Of a DNA stretch of 33,962 nucleotides, positions 2-33,962 are shown in pieces. Under the pieces are notes generated by a model. It was given only the letters and a program-made list of their open reading frames with translations, ran no database searches and had not been told where the DNA came from. The position numbers and the translations under genes are program-made. Source of the stretch: a candidate division WOR-3 bacterium (lineage in GTDB: Bacteria; Hydrothermota; Tepidihabitantia; Tepidihabitantales; Tepidihabitantaceae); NCBI GenBank assembly GCA_039801245.1, contig JBDRUF010000017.1, positions 1 through 33,962 on the forward strand, given 5' to 3'. Position 1 is the first letter of the stretch. Each line of letters opens with the position of its first letter.

Positions 2-1267
2 ATTCTGGTGCGGTTTCAGACCGGCCTGCGCCTCTGGCTACCAAAGAGCCGGGTGCGCCCCCTGTTTGATATTGATGAGGGGCTTTTAGACTCGGCGGTG
101 GCGGCGGCGGTTGGGATTGACAGGGTGAGCGCCTGCCGGATGATTGAGGCGTTCCGGCTGGGAATCGTCCCCCATCAGGATGTGGAACTCTTCACCTTTG
201 GCAGGGATAAGGAGCTGCGGCTTTTAGAGGAGGCGCTTGACGGACTTGCCCGCAGCCGGGGCGATGTCTATATGATTGAGGGCGAGTATGGCACCGGCAA
301 GACCCATCTTTTAGAACTCATCCATCACCGGGCTTTAAAGAAGGGGATGGTCGCAAGCCTGGTGCAGTTTGATCCCCAGGAGGTCGCGCCCCACCGACCG
401 AAAAGGGTCTATCGGGAACTGGTCCGCAACATCAGATTTATCCACGAGGGCAGGGAGTGTGGATTTCGGGAACTTCTGCGGATGGCGCTTGACCTTGACC
501 TGAAAGACCATGTCTTCTTTGGACCGCTTTTAAGGAAGATGAAGAAACTTGACCCGCTTGCGACCGAAACCGAGGTGTTCTGGCAATGGGTTGAGGGTGA
601 AAGCACGAAAGAGTATGCCACGGAGATGCGCGCACCCTACCGGGTTCGGGGTGCCCAGGGGATTCCCGCACTTTATGACTTCTCCACCGCTGCGGACTTC
701 TATGGCAACATCATCTCGGCAATCTCCTATATCTGCCGGCAATTAGGCTTTAAGGGCCTGGTGCTTTTGATTGATGAGGCGGAGACCGTTACCCGGCTCT
801 GGGATATCATCTACCTCTCCAAAAGCATCAACTTTATGGAGGGGCTGGTCCGGATTGCCCAGAACGACCCCCAGCTGCGCCAGATTAGCGACCGGCTGAT
901 TCACAATCAGGTCCGACCCGTCCCTTATATCTACCGTGAGCCGGCACTTTTAGTAATCTTTGCCACCACCCCAACCCCGGGCGAATACGGTTATTTAAGA
1001 CTTGCCAACTCTATCCGGCACCGTATAGAACTTTCACCTTTGAGTGACCAGGCGCTTGCCAATGCCTTTGCCACAATGATAAATGTTTACGAGCGGGCAT
1101 ATCCCAATTTCCATCTGCCGGTAGAGGAGCAGAAGCGACTGCTTGCCCGAACCGCGCGCCAGAACAGCGCTGGCATCAGGGCGTTTATCAAAGGTTGTGT
1201 TGAGGCGCTTGACATCGCCCGGATGCGCCAGCAGGGGGTCTTGCCCCAAAGAGCGGCTGTGGCTTAG
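2..1267 (+). CDS. BrxC/BrxD-type (DUF2791) P-loop ATPase, 5' partial
   Basis: This is a P-loop ATPase of the DUF2791 family, to which the BREX protein BrxD belongs. The frame is open to the left edge, so the true start may lie outside; the first in-window start is a GTG at 8. Counting from it, Walker A is GEYGTGKT (about 92-99) and Walker B is LVLLIDEAE (about 251-259). The stretch after Walker A (LLELIHHRAL, then PHRPKRVYRELVRN) is characteristic of the family. It ends 6 nt before a helicase gene, so the two are almost certainly one operon. In BREX the family accompanies a helicase and acts in phage defence, but DUF2791 ATPases also occur with helicases outside complete BREX loci. The substrate is unknown. 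No methylase or PglZ gene is visible next to it, so a full BREX system cannot be claimed. Confidence 0.8.
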   Translation: MLVRFQTGLRLWLPKSRVRPLFDIDEGLLDSAVAAAVGIDRVSACRMIEAFRLGIVPHQDVELFTFGRDKELRLLEEALDGLARSRGDVYMIEGEYGTGKTHLLELIHHRALKKGMVASLVQFDPQEVAPHRPKRVYRELVRNIRFIHEGRECGFRELLRMALDLDLKDHVFFGPLLRKMKKLDPLATETEVFWQWVEGESTKEYATEMRAPYRVRGAQGIPALYDFSTAADFYGNIISAISYICRQLGFKGLVLLIDEAETVTRLWDIIYLSKSINFMEGLVRIAQNDPQLRQISDRLIHNQVRPVPYIYREPALLVIFATTPTPGEYGYLRLANSIRHRIELSPLSDQALANAFATMINVYERAYPNFHLPVEEQKRLLARTARQNSAGIRAFIKGCVEALDIARMRQQGVLPQRAAVA

Positions 1268-1273
1268 AACAAG

Positions 1274-3331
1274 GTGCCTTCTTCGCTTGAGGAACAGAAA
1301 GAGATAAGGACCGCGCTGGCACACACCTGGCCAGCATTCTTTGCCCGTTTCGGCTCATTGACCGAGGTCCAGGTCAAGGCGATTCCGGAAATCCTTTCCG
1401 GCAACAATTTGGTGCTCATTTCACCCGCAGCATCAGGCAAGACCGAGGCGGTTGTTGCCCCGGTTGTGGAAAGGCTGTTAAGCCAGGATTGCCGCAACTT
1501 TTCCGTCCTCTACATCTCGCCCACCCGCGCCCTGGTCAACGACCTCTATCGCCGTCTGGTTGAGCCCTTAGAATATTTAGGATTAAAACTTGAGCGCAAG
1601 ACCGGCGACCATCCAACAGTCAGGGAAAAAAGCCTGCCCTTTATGCTCTTGACAACGCCGGAGTCATTTGACTCCCTCCTCTGCCGGCACCCGCGCATAT
1701 TCTCAACCCTGAAGGCGGTGATTTTGGATGAGATTCACCTCTTGGATAACACCCCGCGCGGGGACCAGTTAAGGGTCCTTTTGGAAAGGCTGCGGCTCAT
1801 CAACAGCAATCTAAATTATTATGCCCTTTCCGCAACGATTGACGACGAGAAAATCGGTGAACGCTACTTCTCCAATGCCCGAGTGGTAAAGGTGGCAAAG
1901 GAGCGGGAGATTGAGGCAGAACTCATCAAGGCTGGTCCGGACTGGCAGGGAAGGGTTATCCAGAGGCTTGTGGCTCAGGGCTGCCATAAGGTCTTGGTTT
2001 TCTTTAATGCCCGCTCACTTGCCGAGGCAAATGTTAAGCTGTTTGACCGGCCGCCTTTTACCGGCAAGGTCTGGGTTCATCATGCCAGCCTGACAAGGCA
2101 GGTGCGCGAGGAGGTTGAGGCAAAGATGAACAAGGAGCGCATCGGCATCTTGTGCTGCACCTCCACCCTTGAACTGGGGATTGATATCGGTGATGTTGAT
2201 GCGGTGGTGTTGTTTCGCCCGCCATTCAATGTCTCCTCCCTATTACAGCGCATCGGCAGGGGAAACCGGCGCTCGGGGAACGGGTTGTATATGATTGGTG
2301 TCTATCTTGACTCCTGGGAAAGGCTGCTTTTTGAGACCTTTATTGACTGCGCGCGCAAAGGCGAACTTTATGAGAAGCGCTATACCCCCTGCCTTGCCAT
2401 CCTGCCCCAGCAAATCATCTCCTACTGTTTTCAGCGCCGGCGCATCGGCACCACCTTTGATGCGCTTAGGCGCATATTTCAGCCGGTTTATGGCTCAAGC
2501 CCGGTGGTGGAGAAGGTTTTTGCGCATCTCCTTGACGAACGGGTTCTCCAGGAAAGGTCAAACGGTATTTTCTTCCTGACCGATGCCCTTGAGCACAAGG
2601 TGGAACTGGGCAAGATTCACTCCAACATCCAGGAGAAAAGTTTTGGCCAGTATCAGGTGATTGACATCACCTCCGGTCAGGAGATTGGCACGGTCTATTT
2701 TGTCCTTGAGCGGTTTGTTCTTGCCGGCAGGTCCTGGCAGACAATTGAACGCAAGGAGAGGGACAAAAAGATTCTTGTCAAACCCTTAGAGGCAATCTCC
2801 ACCAGCACCAAGGTTTTTGAAGGCACTGGCACTGGCGGCTACTGCTATCTTATGGCTGAGGTCTTAAAAGCCAGGATTTTCCCGGGTCTGAAAAAGGGCG
2901 AGTTTCCATTTTACACAGATGGAGACCGGTCATATATTGTCCATCTCCTGGGCACAACCTATGGCGGGCTTCTCGCTGCGGCTCTGCAGGTTGAGGGCAA
3001 AGATGCCGAGGACTTGGGGGGCAAGGTTTTGATAATCAGCAATCACCGGGGGGGTGGTCCCCCCCACAGGAATATGGAGAGGTTTCCTTTGCCCACAAGA
3101 GAGGCGATCAAGGCGGTGGTACGCGCGCATCTTGAGATGTTTGAGGATAGCCTCGGCTCAGGCGCATTCTTTGACCTTCTCCCTGAGGAGTTAAAGGTTG
3201 AAGACCACCTCTTGACCCTTGATGTTGATGGGCTCTGGGAATACCTTGATGCCATCCAGCTGGTGCGGATGGAGCCTGCCGCGCTCAGGGCGCAGATTGG
3301 CGAGCATCTGCCGGAAATGGTTCAGGAATGA
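1274..3331 (+). CDS. Lhr-like DEAD/DEAH-box SF2 helicase (BrxHI-like)
   Basis: This is a superfamily 2 helicase of 685 residues. Motif I is SPAASGKT (about 50-57), Ia is PTRAL (about 88), II is DEIH (about 152-155), III is SAT (about 186-188) and VI is QRIGRGNR (about 325-332). The DEIH box and the QRIGRGNR form point to the Lhr branch, which includes BREX helicase BrxHI. The C-terminal 350 residues are poorly conserved and carry a Gly-Pro-rich turn (RGGGPPHRN) encoded by a perfect G7/C7 palindrome. The start is a GTG with no clear Shine-Dalgarno, 6 nt after the ATPase stop, suggesting translational coupling. Its stop overlaps the next gene as ATGA. It probably unwinds or translocates on DNA with the ATPase as partner. 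Confidence is high for the helicase family and moderate for the defence context. Confidence 0.85.
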   Translation: MPSSLEEQKEIRTALAHTWPAFFARFGSLTEVQVKAIPEILSGNNLVLISPAASGKTEAVVAPVVERLLSQDCRNFSVLYISPTRALVNDLYRRLVEPLEYLGLKLERKTGDHPTVREKSLPFMLLTTPESFDSLLCRHPRIFSTLKAVILDEIHLLDNTPRGDQLRVLLERLRLINSNLNYYALSATIDDEKIGERYFSNARVVKVAKEREIEAELIKAGPDWQGRVIQRLVAQGCHKVLVFFNARSLAEANVKLFDRPPFTGKVWVHHASLTRQVREEVEAKMNKERIGILCCTSTLELGIDIGDVDAVVLFRPPFNVSSLLQRIGRGNRRSGNGLYMIGVYLDSWERLLFETFIDCARKGELYEKRYTPCLAILPQQIISYCFQRRRIGTTFDALRRIFQPVYGSSPVVEKVFAHLLDERVLQERSNGIFFLTDALEHKVELGKIHSNIQEKSFGQYQVIDITSGQEIGTVYFVLERFVLAGRSWQTIERKERDKKILVKPLEAISTSTKVFEGTGTGGYCYLMAEVLKARIFPGLKKGEFPFYTDGDRSYIVHLLGTTYGGLLAAALQVEGKDAEDLGGKVLIISNHRGGGPPHRNMERFPLPTREAIKAVVRAHLEMFEDSLGSGAFFDLLPEELKVEDHLLTLDVDGLWEYLDAIQLVRMEPAALRAQIGEHLPEMVQE

Positions 3332-4539
3332 ATAGGCTTTTGGTCGTTGCCTATTACACCCCGCCGCTCGGACTTTCCGGGGTGATGCGGGTGACAAAAC
3401 TGTGCAAGTTTCTGCCCGATTTTGGCTGGGAGCCTATCATCCTCACGGTCAAGGATGTTGCCTATTATGCCTATGATGAAAGCCTCTTAAGCGACCTGAG
3501 CCGGGCAAAAATCTTCCGCACCGAAAGCCTGGACCCAAACCGGATTTTAAGAACACTGCAAAATGTAAAAGGCAAAAGGCAGAAGGCAAAAAGAGAACCA
3601 CCATTGGGCAGCAGGTATGATTTAGCACGAGGGGCAAGGCTATTGAATTTCATCTTCCTTCCTGATGCCAAGGTTGGCTGGATGCCATTTGCGATTAAGG
3701 AGGGTAAAAGGCTCATTTGGGAACTGAAACCTCAGGCGGTTTTGGCAACAGCCCCGCCCTGGAGCGCACTACTAATTGGTTTGAAACTGGCGCAAAATGG
3801 CAACCTGCCTTTTATTGCCGACTTCCGCGACCCCTGGCCCGCGGGTTTTCAGGCACCCCCATTTTACCAGCGACCGTTTCTCAAGAAAATACTTAAGAGG
3901 ATATTTGCCGGTGCCAGTATGGTCTTAGCGGTGAACAAAGGAACCGCACAAAGGATTGCGCACTACGGTGAAGAAAAGATAGCGATTTTGGAAAACGGTT
4001 TTGACCCGGATGAGTTTATTATAGCCCCGGAAAAACTGCCGGGCTTCAGCATCCTCTATGTAGGCAATCTTTATGAGAACCAGCAGGAGATCGCCGGTTT
4101 CCTCTCAGCACTCACTCAACTACCTGATGTCAGGTTTTACCTTGCTGGCAATATTGACAAAGAGAGCCAGAAAATGCTTCAGAAAAACAAACAGGTCACG
4201 CTTTTGGGCAGGGTTCCCCATTCCCGGGCGCTTGCCCTGATGAAGGGTGCGGATGCACTTTTGTACATCGGCAAACCCGGTCAGCCGGTCGGTTTGAAAC
4301 TTTATGAGTATTTGGGCGCGCAAAAGCCGATAATTGTCTGGGCAGAGAACGCCCTCGAAGCGGCAGATTTGGTGAAGGAAATGGATGCCGGCAGCTCCTG
4401 CAATGATGCCGTATCTTTGGGCAGATTTATCCAGGAGATAAAGGAAAATCCAAACCGCTTTTCCGGGAAGGACCGCAGCCGGTTCAATCGCAGGAATCAG
4501 GCAGAATGGCTGGCACTACGCCTAAAAAGCCTGTTGTGA
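3328..4539 (+). CDS. Glycosyltransferase family 4-like protein
   Basis: This 403-residue protein has the two-domain GT-B layout of family 4 glycosyltransferases. The N-terminus (RLLVVAYYTPPLGLSGVMR) holds the acceptor-side glycine loop. FIADFRDPWP near residue 160 is typical of a bacterial GT4 subgroup. The nucleotide-sugar side is GLKLYEYLGAQKPII near residue 320, matching the usual conserved Glu region. Its ATG overlaps the helicase stop (ATGA), yet by function it belongs with the downstream sugar genes. It runs tail-to-tail into the GT2 gene with a 43-nt overlap. Residues about 80-92 (KGKRQKAKRE) are encoded by a heptamer repeat that looks inserted. It probably transfers a hexose to a lipid-linked or surface glycan; donor and acceptor cannot be read from the sequence. 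Confidence 0.8.
   Translation: MNRLLVVAYYTPPLGLSGVMRVTKLCKFLPDFGWEPIILTVKDVAYYAYDESLLSDLSRAKIFRTESLDPNRILRTLQNVKGKRQKAKREPPLGSRYDLARGARLLNFIFLPDAKVGWMPFAIKEGKRLIWELKPQAVLATAPPWSALLIGLKLAQNGNLPFIADFRDPWPAGFQAPPFYQRPFLKKILKRIFAGASMVLAVNKGTAQRIAHYGEEKIAILENGFDPDEFIIAPEKLPGFSILYVGNLYENQQEIAGFLSALTQLPDVRFYLAGNIDKESQKMLQKNKQVTLLGRVPHSRALALMKGADALLYIGKPGQPVGLKLYEYLGAQKPIIVWAENALEAADLVKEMDAGSSCNDAVSLGRFIQEIKENPNRFSGKDRSRFNRRNQAEWLALRLKSLL
3567..3594 (+). repeat. Heptamer repeat inside the GT4 gene
   Basis: Three 7-nt units in a row (AAAAGGC twice, then AGAAGGC) are followed by a degenerate fourth. Seven is not a multiple of three, so each unit is read in a different frame, giving a basic linker (KGKRQKAK). 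The unit size matches the arrays flanking rpmB. Confidence 0.6.
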
Positions 4540-31807: not shown

Positions 31808-32842
31808 TTAAGGTTGACCCTTCCTCCACTCAAACACAAACTTACCGCTCTTATTTATATACCCCTCCTTATCACCCATCCGCACAAATCCCAGACCACC
31901 CTCAAAACTGCGGGCATAATCAAACTGAAGTTCTATCACCATCCTGCCAGTCGTATCAATGTAGCCCCATTTATTATCTATTCTCACCGGCGCGAGCCCG
32001 TCAGAAAAACTTCCCGGCTCATCAAACTGTGGTTCAATCACCATCTTTCCGGTTTTGTCTATATATCCAAACTTCCCATTCAAGAACACCGGCGCCAGCC
32101 CATCAGAGAAACTCCAGGCATTTTCAAACTGCGGTTCGATGACCACCCTGCCTTGCGGGTCAATATAGCCCCACTTTTTGTCTATTCGCACTGCGGCCAG
32201 ACTCTCCGAGAATGTCAGCGCCCTTTCAAACTGGAGCGGGATGGCAAATTCACCCCGATGGTCAATATAGCCCCACTTCCCACTTGCCGAATCCCACACG
32301 CAGGCAAGACCCAACGAGAAATCGCCAATTACCTCAAACTTTGGTGGCAAAAGAAATCTCCCCCTTTTATCTATTAATGACCATTTGCTGGTCTTATAAT
32401 CGCGCACCCGGGCAAACCCTTCCTTGAACTTCCATGCCCAGAGAAACTGCGGTCTGATGACCATTTTACCTTGCCGGTCAACATAACCCCACAGGTTGCC
32501 AACCTGCACCGCTGCCAGACTTTCCGAAAAATCCCTTGTGGCAGCAAACTGCGGCTTAATAACAAACTCCCCGCTCGTGTTGATATAGCCCCCGGCATTT
32601 CCAACCCGCACACCCGCAAGACCCTCAGAAAACTCCCGCGCCCATTCAAACTGCGGCTTAATGACAAACCTGCCGCTGGAGTTGATATAGCCCCATTTAC
32701 CATCCTTTTGCGCAGGAAAAAGGCCGCTGTGCTCACTTTGCCCCTTCTTTCCTGTGGGTGGTGATTGCTTTGAACATCCTATTACGGCAAGAATTAGGGC
32801 CAGAGCAATAAAAAACCCAATCACAAACCTGCTCTTATTCAC
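31808..32842 (-). CDS. WG-repeat lipoprotein
   Basis: This 344-residue predicted lipoprotein has eight full WG repeats and a partial ninth. The signal segment ends in the lipobox VIGC (about 20-23), followed by a Ser/Pro linker. Each repeat of about 35 residues has the form KWGYID-xx-G-x-hV-I-PQF-x-x-A-x-x-FS-x-G-hA-hV. Repeat 4 is the most divergent (KWSLIDKRG). I start it at the GTG at 32842, not an ATG seven codons earlier: AAGGAGG lies 4 nt before the GTG, and the ATG variant would place charged residues ahead of the signal. The upstream gene stops 17 nt before. WG repeats are thought to mediate protein contacts; function here is unknown. Confidence 0.8.
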   Translation of the reverse strand: MNKSRFVIGFFIALALILAVIGCSKQSPPTGKKGQSEHSGLFPAQKDGKWGYINSSGRFVIKPQFEWAREFSEGLAGVRVGNAGGYINTSGEFVIKPQFAATRDFSESLAAVQVGNLWGYVDRQGKMVIRPQFLWAWKFKEGFARVRDYKTSKWSLIDKRGRFLLPPKFEVIGDFSLGLACVWDSASGKWGYIDHRGEFAIPLQFERALTFSESLAAVRIDKKWGYIDPQGRVVIEPQFENAWSFSDGLAPVFLNGKFGYIDKTGKMVIEPQFDEPGSFSDGLAPVRIDNKWGYIDTTGRMVIELQFDYARSFEGGLGFVRMGDKEGYINKSGKFVFEWRKGQP

Positions 32843-32859
32843 ATCCCCTCCTTTTTGTT

Positions 32860-33417
32860 TCATCTTAACCTTTTCAACACCGCCTTTTGAATCACCGAGA
32901 AGCGATCTTTGACCCCAAAGTCTTTATAAAGGCTCTCGGTTAGCGAGCCTTCAGGGTAGTTAGTTTTCTCCTGTATCGCCATCAGTTCGGTGACAACAAG
33001 CAGAAATTCAACAGTAAACTCGCCCACTCTGTCCAACTCCTTGAATTGCTCAATATGTTCTGGTTTAAAAAACTGCAGGCTGGGCGGAAATGAGTTTACT
33101 GGCCTTACTTGGCTCAACATCGCCAAGATATGTTCCTTCAATCTCATGGTCAACGAAGGGTTATGGGCGTGCTTCACATACATTTCAACAATTAAATGGA
33201 CATGGGCAGGTGTGCGCTCACGTTTGCCAGGCTCTCTAAATTTTACAATAAAATCAAAAGGGGATTCGGGCTTCCTACCAGGATAGACCCCAATTTGGAC
33301 ATTCGCCTTGGTTGTATAAATAAGGTCGTCTTTTTGTTCTCGCCTGAGTCGCCATATTTTATAAGAGGATTTCAGGTAATAGTAGATAACCCTCAACCGA
33401 TTTAAAAACCCCTTCAT
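32860..33417 (-). CDS. Conserved companion of DNA-methylase-like gene
   Basis: This 185-residue protein has no name I can assign with confidence. Its central part (DFIVKFREPGKRERTPAHVHLIVEMYVKHAHN, about 55-86) resembles proteins I recall beside DNA methylases in other bacteria, some described as restriction-modification partners. Later stretches are EHIEQFKELDRVGEFTVEFLLVVTELMAIQEKTN (about 119-152) and a C-terminal helix (KDRFSVIQKAVLKRLR). No PD-(D/E)xK or HNH nuclease motif is visible; PAHVH is a weak candidate metal site. It overlaps the methylase-like gene as ATGA and is translationally coupled. It is followed by the WG lipoprotein after 17 nt. Confidence is high that it is a gene and low for function. 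Confidence 0.7.
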   Translation of the reverse strand: MKGFLNRLRVIYYYLKSSYKIWRLRREQKDDLIYTTKANVQIGVYPGRKPESPFDFIVKFREPGKRERTPAHVHLIVEMYVKHAHNPSLTMRLKEHILAMLSQVRPVNSFPPSLQFFKPEHIEQFKELDRVGEFTVEFLLVVTELMAIQEKTNYPEGSLTESLYKDFGVKDRFSVIQKAVLKRLR

Positions 33418-33962
33418 TTTTTCACTTCATAAACCAGCAGGTATTGATGAACTATCTTTAAATCCTCACCTAATACCTGCGGACCTGGATCCCTTTTCTC
33501 TTGAACAACAACTACTATCTCCTTGAGCCATAAATCCTCAGCAGTTAAAATATCTATTAGCCTTTTGGCAAGAGGTTCAATGTAGCCATTTATTCTTACA
33601 TCCTGGATTTGAATTGCCAAAAACCCACCATTTTCCAACCTAGTCAACTGCTCCTTTGCAAATTTTTTAATATTCTCTAAATAAAGTTCAATCTCAGCAC
33701 TAGAACAGCAATTGTTAAAAATGGGGGATTTTATCAAAACCAAATGGTTCTTCATCCTGCTTTTTCTCTGAAATAAGTCCTTTGCATTCCCGATGTGTGC
33801 GGCAAAACTAATAACTGAATACCCCTTACCCTCTGAATATCTATCAATCACATTTTTATTAAAACACGCCTCAAATTCCTTTTCCGGGAAAATCCAAACC
33901 GTGGTTGTTTGCAGTTTATCCATTTTTCTTTTTAGTGATGGTCTCTCGAATACTGGTATTAA
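33414..33962 (-). CDS. DNA-methylase-like protein lacking catalytic motifs, 5' partial
   Basis: The frame is open to the right edge, and the residues before the first ATG (IPVFERPSLKRKM) read as protein, so this is probably the 3' part of a longer gene. It resembles amino-DNA methylases: KLQTTTVWIFPE matches the 'LQTTTVWDFP' start of one methylase group, GGFLAIQIQDVRINGY matches the post-motif strand, and IVHQYLLVYEVKK matches the closing 'HEYLLVFKK'. Where the cofactor loop DPFAGSG is expected it has SFAAHIGNA, and where DPPY/SPPY is expected it has KSPIFNN. Both catalytic sites are therefore degenerate by eye. It overlaps the companion gene (ATGA). It may be a non-catalytic DNA-binding or regulatory relative, or a decaying methylase. 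Confidence 0.6.
   Translation of the reverse strand, partial: LIPVFERPSLKRKMDKLQTTTVWIFPEKEFEACFNKNVIDRYSEGKGYSVISFAAHIGNAKDLFQRKSRMKNHLVLIKSPIFNNCCSSAEIELYLENIKKFAKEQLTRLENGGFLAIQIQDVRINGYIEPLAKRLIDILTAEDLWLKEIVVVVQEKRDPGPQVLGEDLKIVHQYLLVYEVKK

Follow-up and report, generated by a model that had tools for sequence, protein, structure and literature searches.

An open reading frame at a contig end as the probable inactive C-terminal domain of a tandem amino-DNA methyltransferase

Two active/inactive methylase pairs are established, METTL3–METTL14 (PMC5023411) and MTA1–MTA9 (PMC9174199), and a duplicated bacterial DNA methylase, one copy of which lost its activity, has been proposed as the ancestor of the eukaryotic m6A writers (PMC5023411). 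The members of both pairs are separate eukaryotic proteins, and MTA1c additionally has separate small DNA-binding subunits. A single-chain arrangement is found in RsmC, the 16S rRNA guanine-N2 methyltransferase, which carries tandem methylase domains in one polypeptide, the N-terminal copy being inactive. A further point of comparison is provided by the DpnII-type (GATC) restriction–modification operons. We know of no described DpnII system in which the methylase is fused to a degenerate copy, and a short search of titles and abstracts turned up no report of a bacterial methylase that carries a dead copy in fusion.

The window analyzed here is the entire 33,962-nucleotide contig C17 of the candidate division WOR-3 genome G000, and a methylase-like open reading frame (ORF) on its reverse strand runs open off the contig end (33414–33962, 182 open codons; 169 amino acids when counted from an apparent ATG, 33414–33923). 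The original prediction had described this ORF as a DNA-methylase-like protein with both catalytic motifs degenerate, and the sequence agrees with that description. The methylase-like start (TTTVWIFP) and end (HQYLLVYEVKK) are both present, with TTVW (33894–33905, reverse strand) as the counterpart of the motif X segment TTVWSF of catalytic domains. SFAAHIGNA (33783–33809, reverse strand) sits at the position of motif I, the SAM loop, without the pattern FxGxGT, and KSPIFNN (33711–33731, reverse strand) sits at the position of motif IV, which reads HPPY in the active domain. There are no internal stops. Taken alone, the ORF thus has neither motif I nor motif IV of an amino-DNA methyltransferase (PF01555), and its score against the Pfam N6_N4_Mtase model (19.1, E = 0.0013) lies below the curated cut-off of 26.7. 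The likeness is nevertheless above chance, as a profile built from 13 relatives matched the intact methylase profile with a probability of 96.8% (hhalign, E = 2e-10).

Is the ORF a whole gene with a natural start at position 33923? We observed that the frame continues upstream of this ATG as a stop-free stretch of 13 codons, LIPVFERPSLKRK (33924–33962, reverse strand), which can be aligned either with the linker of full-length relatives, reading VVPTLEKPLLKK in L002, or with YLPIFEKP, where the catalytic domain ends. The match of G000 to a full-length relative reaches into this stretch, and inspection by eye gave no clear ribosome-binding site ahead of the ATG. The stretch is evidence that the gene in the window is fused. 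The N-terminal methylase part was not found on any other G000 contig and so is missing from the assembly; the fusion in G000 consequently rests on the 13 in-frame codons together with the relatives.

These relatives are widespread. Searching 100 relatives gave 11 genomes with the ORF sequence, G000 among them, and the degenerate domain, hereafter psi, is present in 14 of the 147 genomes of the phylum, spread over nine families. It is joined to a catalytic domain in 12 of the 14 carriers, the other two (G000 and G056) being cut by contig ends. One further copy lies in a Fidelibacterota genome (locus L002), with none elsewhere among 245 genomes of that phylum, and plasmid and phage collections gave matches to the catalytic half only. 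The homologues are thus not restricted to one genome. In every relative that is not cut by a contig end, psi forms the C-terminal third of a longer protein: approximately 170 residues, 38–56% identical to the window, in a protein of 490–550 amino acids that begins with a DNA-binding-like segment and continues with an intact methylase domain.

Within the full protein, residues 10–66 look like a helix-turn-helix, for which AlphaFold predicted three helices with a local pLDDT near 80. The overall model of this full-length relative was too weak (mean pLDDT 45.9, with little alignment depth) to reveal an interface between the domains, and a Foldseek search of the PDB with it returned generic methylases, to which we give no weight. 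In three loci (L032, L035 and L076), a zinc-finger-like Cys-Cys-His-His pattern stands ahead of the helix-turn-helix-like segment. Residues 67–318 make up the methylase domain, with the motif order X-I-IV. Motif I, LDYF(C/A)G(A/S)GTT (LDYFCGAGTT or LDYFAGSGTT), and motif IV, HPPY, are intact in all 11 full-length members. The catalytic part matches Pfam N6_N4_Mtase with E = 2e-33 to 2e-31 and matches the PADLOC MTase_II model PDLC03376 end to end (E ~ 1e-94), a model that spans the 249-residue catalytic domain only. Residues 350–517 correspond to the domain seen in the window.

Since the relatives carry intact motifs upstream in the same frame, an intact active site is almost certainly encoded in the front part that the contig lacks, and the product of the whole gene is most likely an active methylase rather than a non-catalytic protein. 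The original prediction of a free-standing non-catalytic methylase therefore fails at the level of the gene, as every relative of sufficient length has LDYFCGAGTT-type and HPPY motifs upstream.

What, then, is the psi domain? When the sequences were aligned with MAFFT without holding the domains apart, psi and the catalytic domain aligned along their length, and corresponding segments could be recognized throughout (catalytic/psi: TTVWSF/TTVWIF, RNVILKYS/KNVIDRYS, DLICAHPPY/LVLIKSPI, ILIGDNR/IQIQDVR and HEYLPIFEK/HQYLLVYEV). A gap in psi extends from motif I to motif III and covers the ~60–70 residues found after motif I in the active domain. All psi members share the same motif losses: motifs I and IV are missing from every one, the first residue of motif IV is replaced by Lys in 12 of 13 relatives, and 20 columns are invariant across the 13 sequences. 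As far as sequence comparison goes, these results show psi to be a shortened, inactive second copy that shares common ancestry with the active domain.

The second copy is also maintained, since dN/dS in informative pairs was 0.14–0.24 for psi (0.03–0.06 for the catalytic domain). The very close pair L030/L074 gave 0.58 and 0.21, respectively, values that derive from few changes. Psi is always the less conserved half, with 31–71% identity in non-sister pairs compared with 67–91% for the catalytic domain. In a tree of catalytic domains, all fused members fall on one side of a branch with 100/98 support and all standalone methylases fall outside. On the viral contig L045, the catalytic domain and psi are two adjacent genes; because this contig sits inside the fused clade, the split is secondary. 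A third methylase gene with intact PFVGIGTT and SPPY motifs (L045:7248–8138) overlaps the free-standing psi gene. The tree and the substitution rates together show that, in the sampled family, the degenerate copy arose once and has been kept by purifying selection. The maintained non-catalytic role that had been proposed for the ORF therefore holds for the psi domain, with its shared losses and purifying selection, but not for the gene as a whole, which has intact upstream motifs in the relatives.

The ORF is followed by a companion gene for a protein of 185 amino acids (32860–33417, reverse strand), and the predicted ATGA coupling between the two was confirmed as an exact overlap with the methylase stop. 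The companion belongs to an uncharacterized family with the motifs TPxHxH and QE(K/D)xN; none of Pfam, NCBIfam, PADLOC, PHROGs and the PDB gave a match to it above threshold, and its AlphaFold model was weak (pLDDT 56.6). Directly 3′ of it lies a WG-repeat protein with about ten repeats (31808–32863, reverse strand; PF14903, E = 6e-105), and the next gene beyond is alaS. The companion family also follows the fused methylase in L002, L027, L033 and L036, and a more distant relative of it does so in L032, L034 and L035. In L030, L031, L074 and L076, the following gene encodes a 377–386-residue protein with a DpnII-like C-terminal part (E = 1e-17 in L030 and 2e-11 in L076); L028 has a third gene type and L029 a stub. 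An uncharacterized 407–445-residue protein with a weak DUF2400 match is encoded 3′ of two fused methylases, directly after the methylase in L075 (1459–2796) and as the third gene in L028 (9–1232). It reads like a helix-hairpin-helix glycosylase and might be the effector of these two systems. In the Fidelibacterota locus L002, the fused methylase is immediately preceded by genes for an AlwI-family restriction nuclease and for two N6_N4 methylases (52–3444).

Six standalone relatives of the catalytic domain (L073, L079, L080, L082, L083 and L084) adjoin DpnII-family nucleases, which Pfam identified in L073 and L079 (E = 5e-109 and 3e-70) and which were assigned by homology to these two in the remainder. 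The companion superfamily also occurs 3′ of standalone methylases without psi (L078 and L081), and in L116 it is part of a psi-free operon of the order DpnM–DpnII–companion–DpnA, the genes being named by sequence resemblance. The four genes of this operon overlap and include a Dam-like methylase; its companion homologue, of 258 amino acids (L116:629–1405, genome G102), has an apparently duplicated front half and lies between the DpnII nuclease and the DpnA-like methylase. Further companion homologues (DFIVKYREPGKRLRTPSHTHW) are found in viral contigs (L087–L097), with a sigma-factor gene near at least one, and no methylase neighbor was detected beside them. The earlier view of the companion as a protein found beside methylases thus holds for most relatives but not for these phage homologues. 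With no match over threshold in the libraries searched, a known nuclease or defense protein was rejected, and a restriction nuclease is unlikely, since the L116 operon holds both a DpnII nuclease and a relative of the companion. The companion is most simply read as an accessory protein that serves the methylase or its restriction operon.

Could the base composition reveal the target site? Of the palindromic tetramers, GATC shows the strongest depletion in the window (16 seen, 149 expected), and in a 114-kb sample of G000 (contigs C1–C4) it was seen 78 times against an expected 519, or 0.15 of expectation. GGCC, CTAG and CATG are likewise depleted. The depletion of GATC showed no association with the fused gene across relatives, however (14 genomes with the gene and 23 without it, medians 0.41 and 0.39, p = 0.47). 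GATC was therefore rejected as a candidate target and, since its depletion is equally common in relatives that lack the gene, no target can be claimed for the fused methylase.

We consider it roughly 60% probable, taking the explanation as a whole, that the ORF in the window encodes the C-terminal part of an amino-DNA methyltransferase with tandem methylase domains, the second of which is a built-in inactive partner. The gene would encode a helix-turn-helix-like segment, an active-looking methylase domain and then the degenerate copy, an architecture that is seen in the relatives and presumed for the window. Methyl transfer would be carried out by the first domain only. The second domain would pack against the first as its inactive partner and would complete the DNA-binding surface and/or stabilize the active domain, on the model of METTL14 for METTL3 and MTA9 for MTA1. 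By this analogy, the psi tail most likely helps the active domain to bind DNA or to fold, and the free psi gene beside the methylase in L045 is as expected of a partner that can act in cis or in trans.

The main rival, which partly overlaps with the built-in partner, is that psi serves as a target-recognition domain and owes its faster divergence among relatives to switches in the site recognized. Psi follows motif VIII in an enzyme of the order X-I-IV, which is where gamma-order methylases keep their recognition domain; it is the more divergent half, and the closest standalone relatives have no domain of this type. On the other hand, psi is a copy of the methylase fold rather than a known recognition fold, its dN/dS is well below 1, and the standalone catalytic relatives pair with DpnII-type nucleases without it, so that the active domain presumably finds its site alone. 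A recognition role seems unlikely. Slightly less likely again is that psi is a docking platform for a partner gene, either the accessory protein or a restriction nuclease, and couples methylation to restriction. In its favor, nearly all fused methylase genes are directly followed by one for a companion-superfamily protein or for a divergent nuclease resembling DpnII, but the same accessory superfamily occurs beside the psi-free methylases of L078 and L081 and in the operon of L116, and hence does not need psi.

The two other readings concern the contig end. That psi is a separate protein starting at the ATG at 33923 and acting in trans beside a methylase gene past the contig end has a precedent in L045, where psi is a free gene whose start coincides with this ATG. 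It is improbable, given that the frame is open upstream with linker-like sequence, that all same-phylum homologues uncut by contig ends are fused and that the splitting in L045 is secondary. The location and the lost motifs would also suit a pseudogene, that is, a decayed second methylase copy or an assembly artefact, yet the identical losses across homologues and the dN/dS values contradict decay, and the 20 invariant residues, the lack of internal stops and the conserved downstream companion make a remnant of either kind very improbable.

As in METTL3–METTL14 and MTA1–MTA9, an active amino-methylase occurs together with a homologous copy that lacks the SAM and catalytic motifs and is yet maintained; by sequence, the inactive copy is homologous to the active one, conserved and under selection. 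The family differs from both pairs in being bacterial and fused in a single chain. Furthermore, METTL14 keeps the whole fold, whereas psi lacks the part that spans motifs I to III; because motifs II and III are absent, psi may not form a dimer of the METTL14 type, and the pairing that we propose for the fused family is an inference. RsmC, a weak Foldseek match (2pjd), likewise has tandem domains with one inactive, but its inactive copy is the N-terminal one. The connection to DpnII-type operons (PF04556) is seen in the standalone relatives beside DpnII nucleases (L073, L079 and L080), in the divergent DpnII-like nuclease that follows four fused members and in the companion relative inside the L116 operon; G000 departs from these systems in that no DpnII nuclease (PF04556) was found in it.

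What emerges is a bacterial tandem methylase with a conserved dead half. We tentatively suggest, at somewhat less than even odds, that it is a bacterial counterpart of METTL3–METTL14 and MTA1–MTA9, with a same-chain inactive partner that governs DNA recognition, is split off in a virus and is associated with an accessory protein of DpnII operons. If this is true, a half-dead bacterial family that is mostly fused and split in a virus would open the step in the evolution of the m6A writers to direct study, as the dead half could be removed, swapped or separated and the resulting loss measured.
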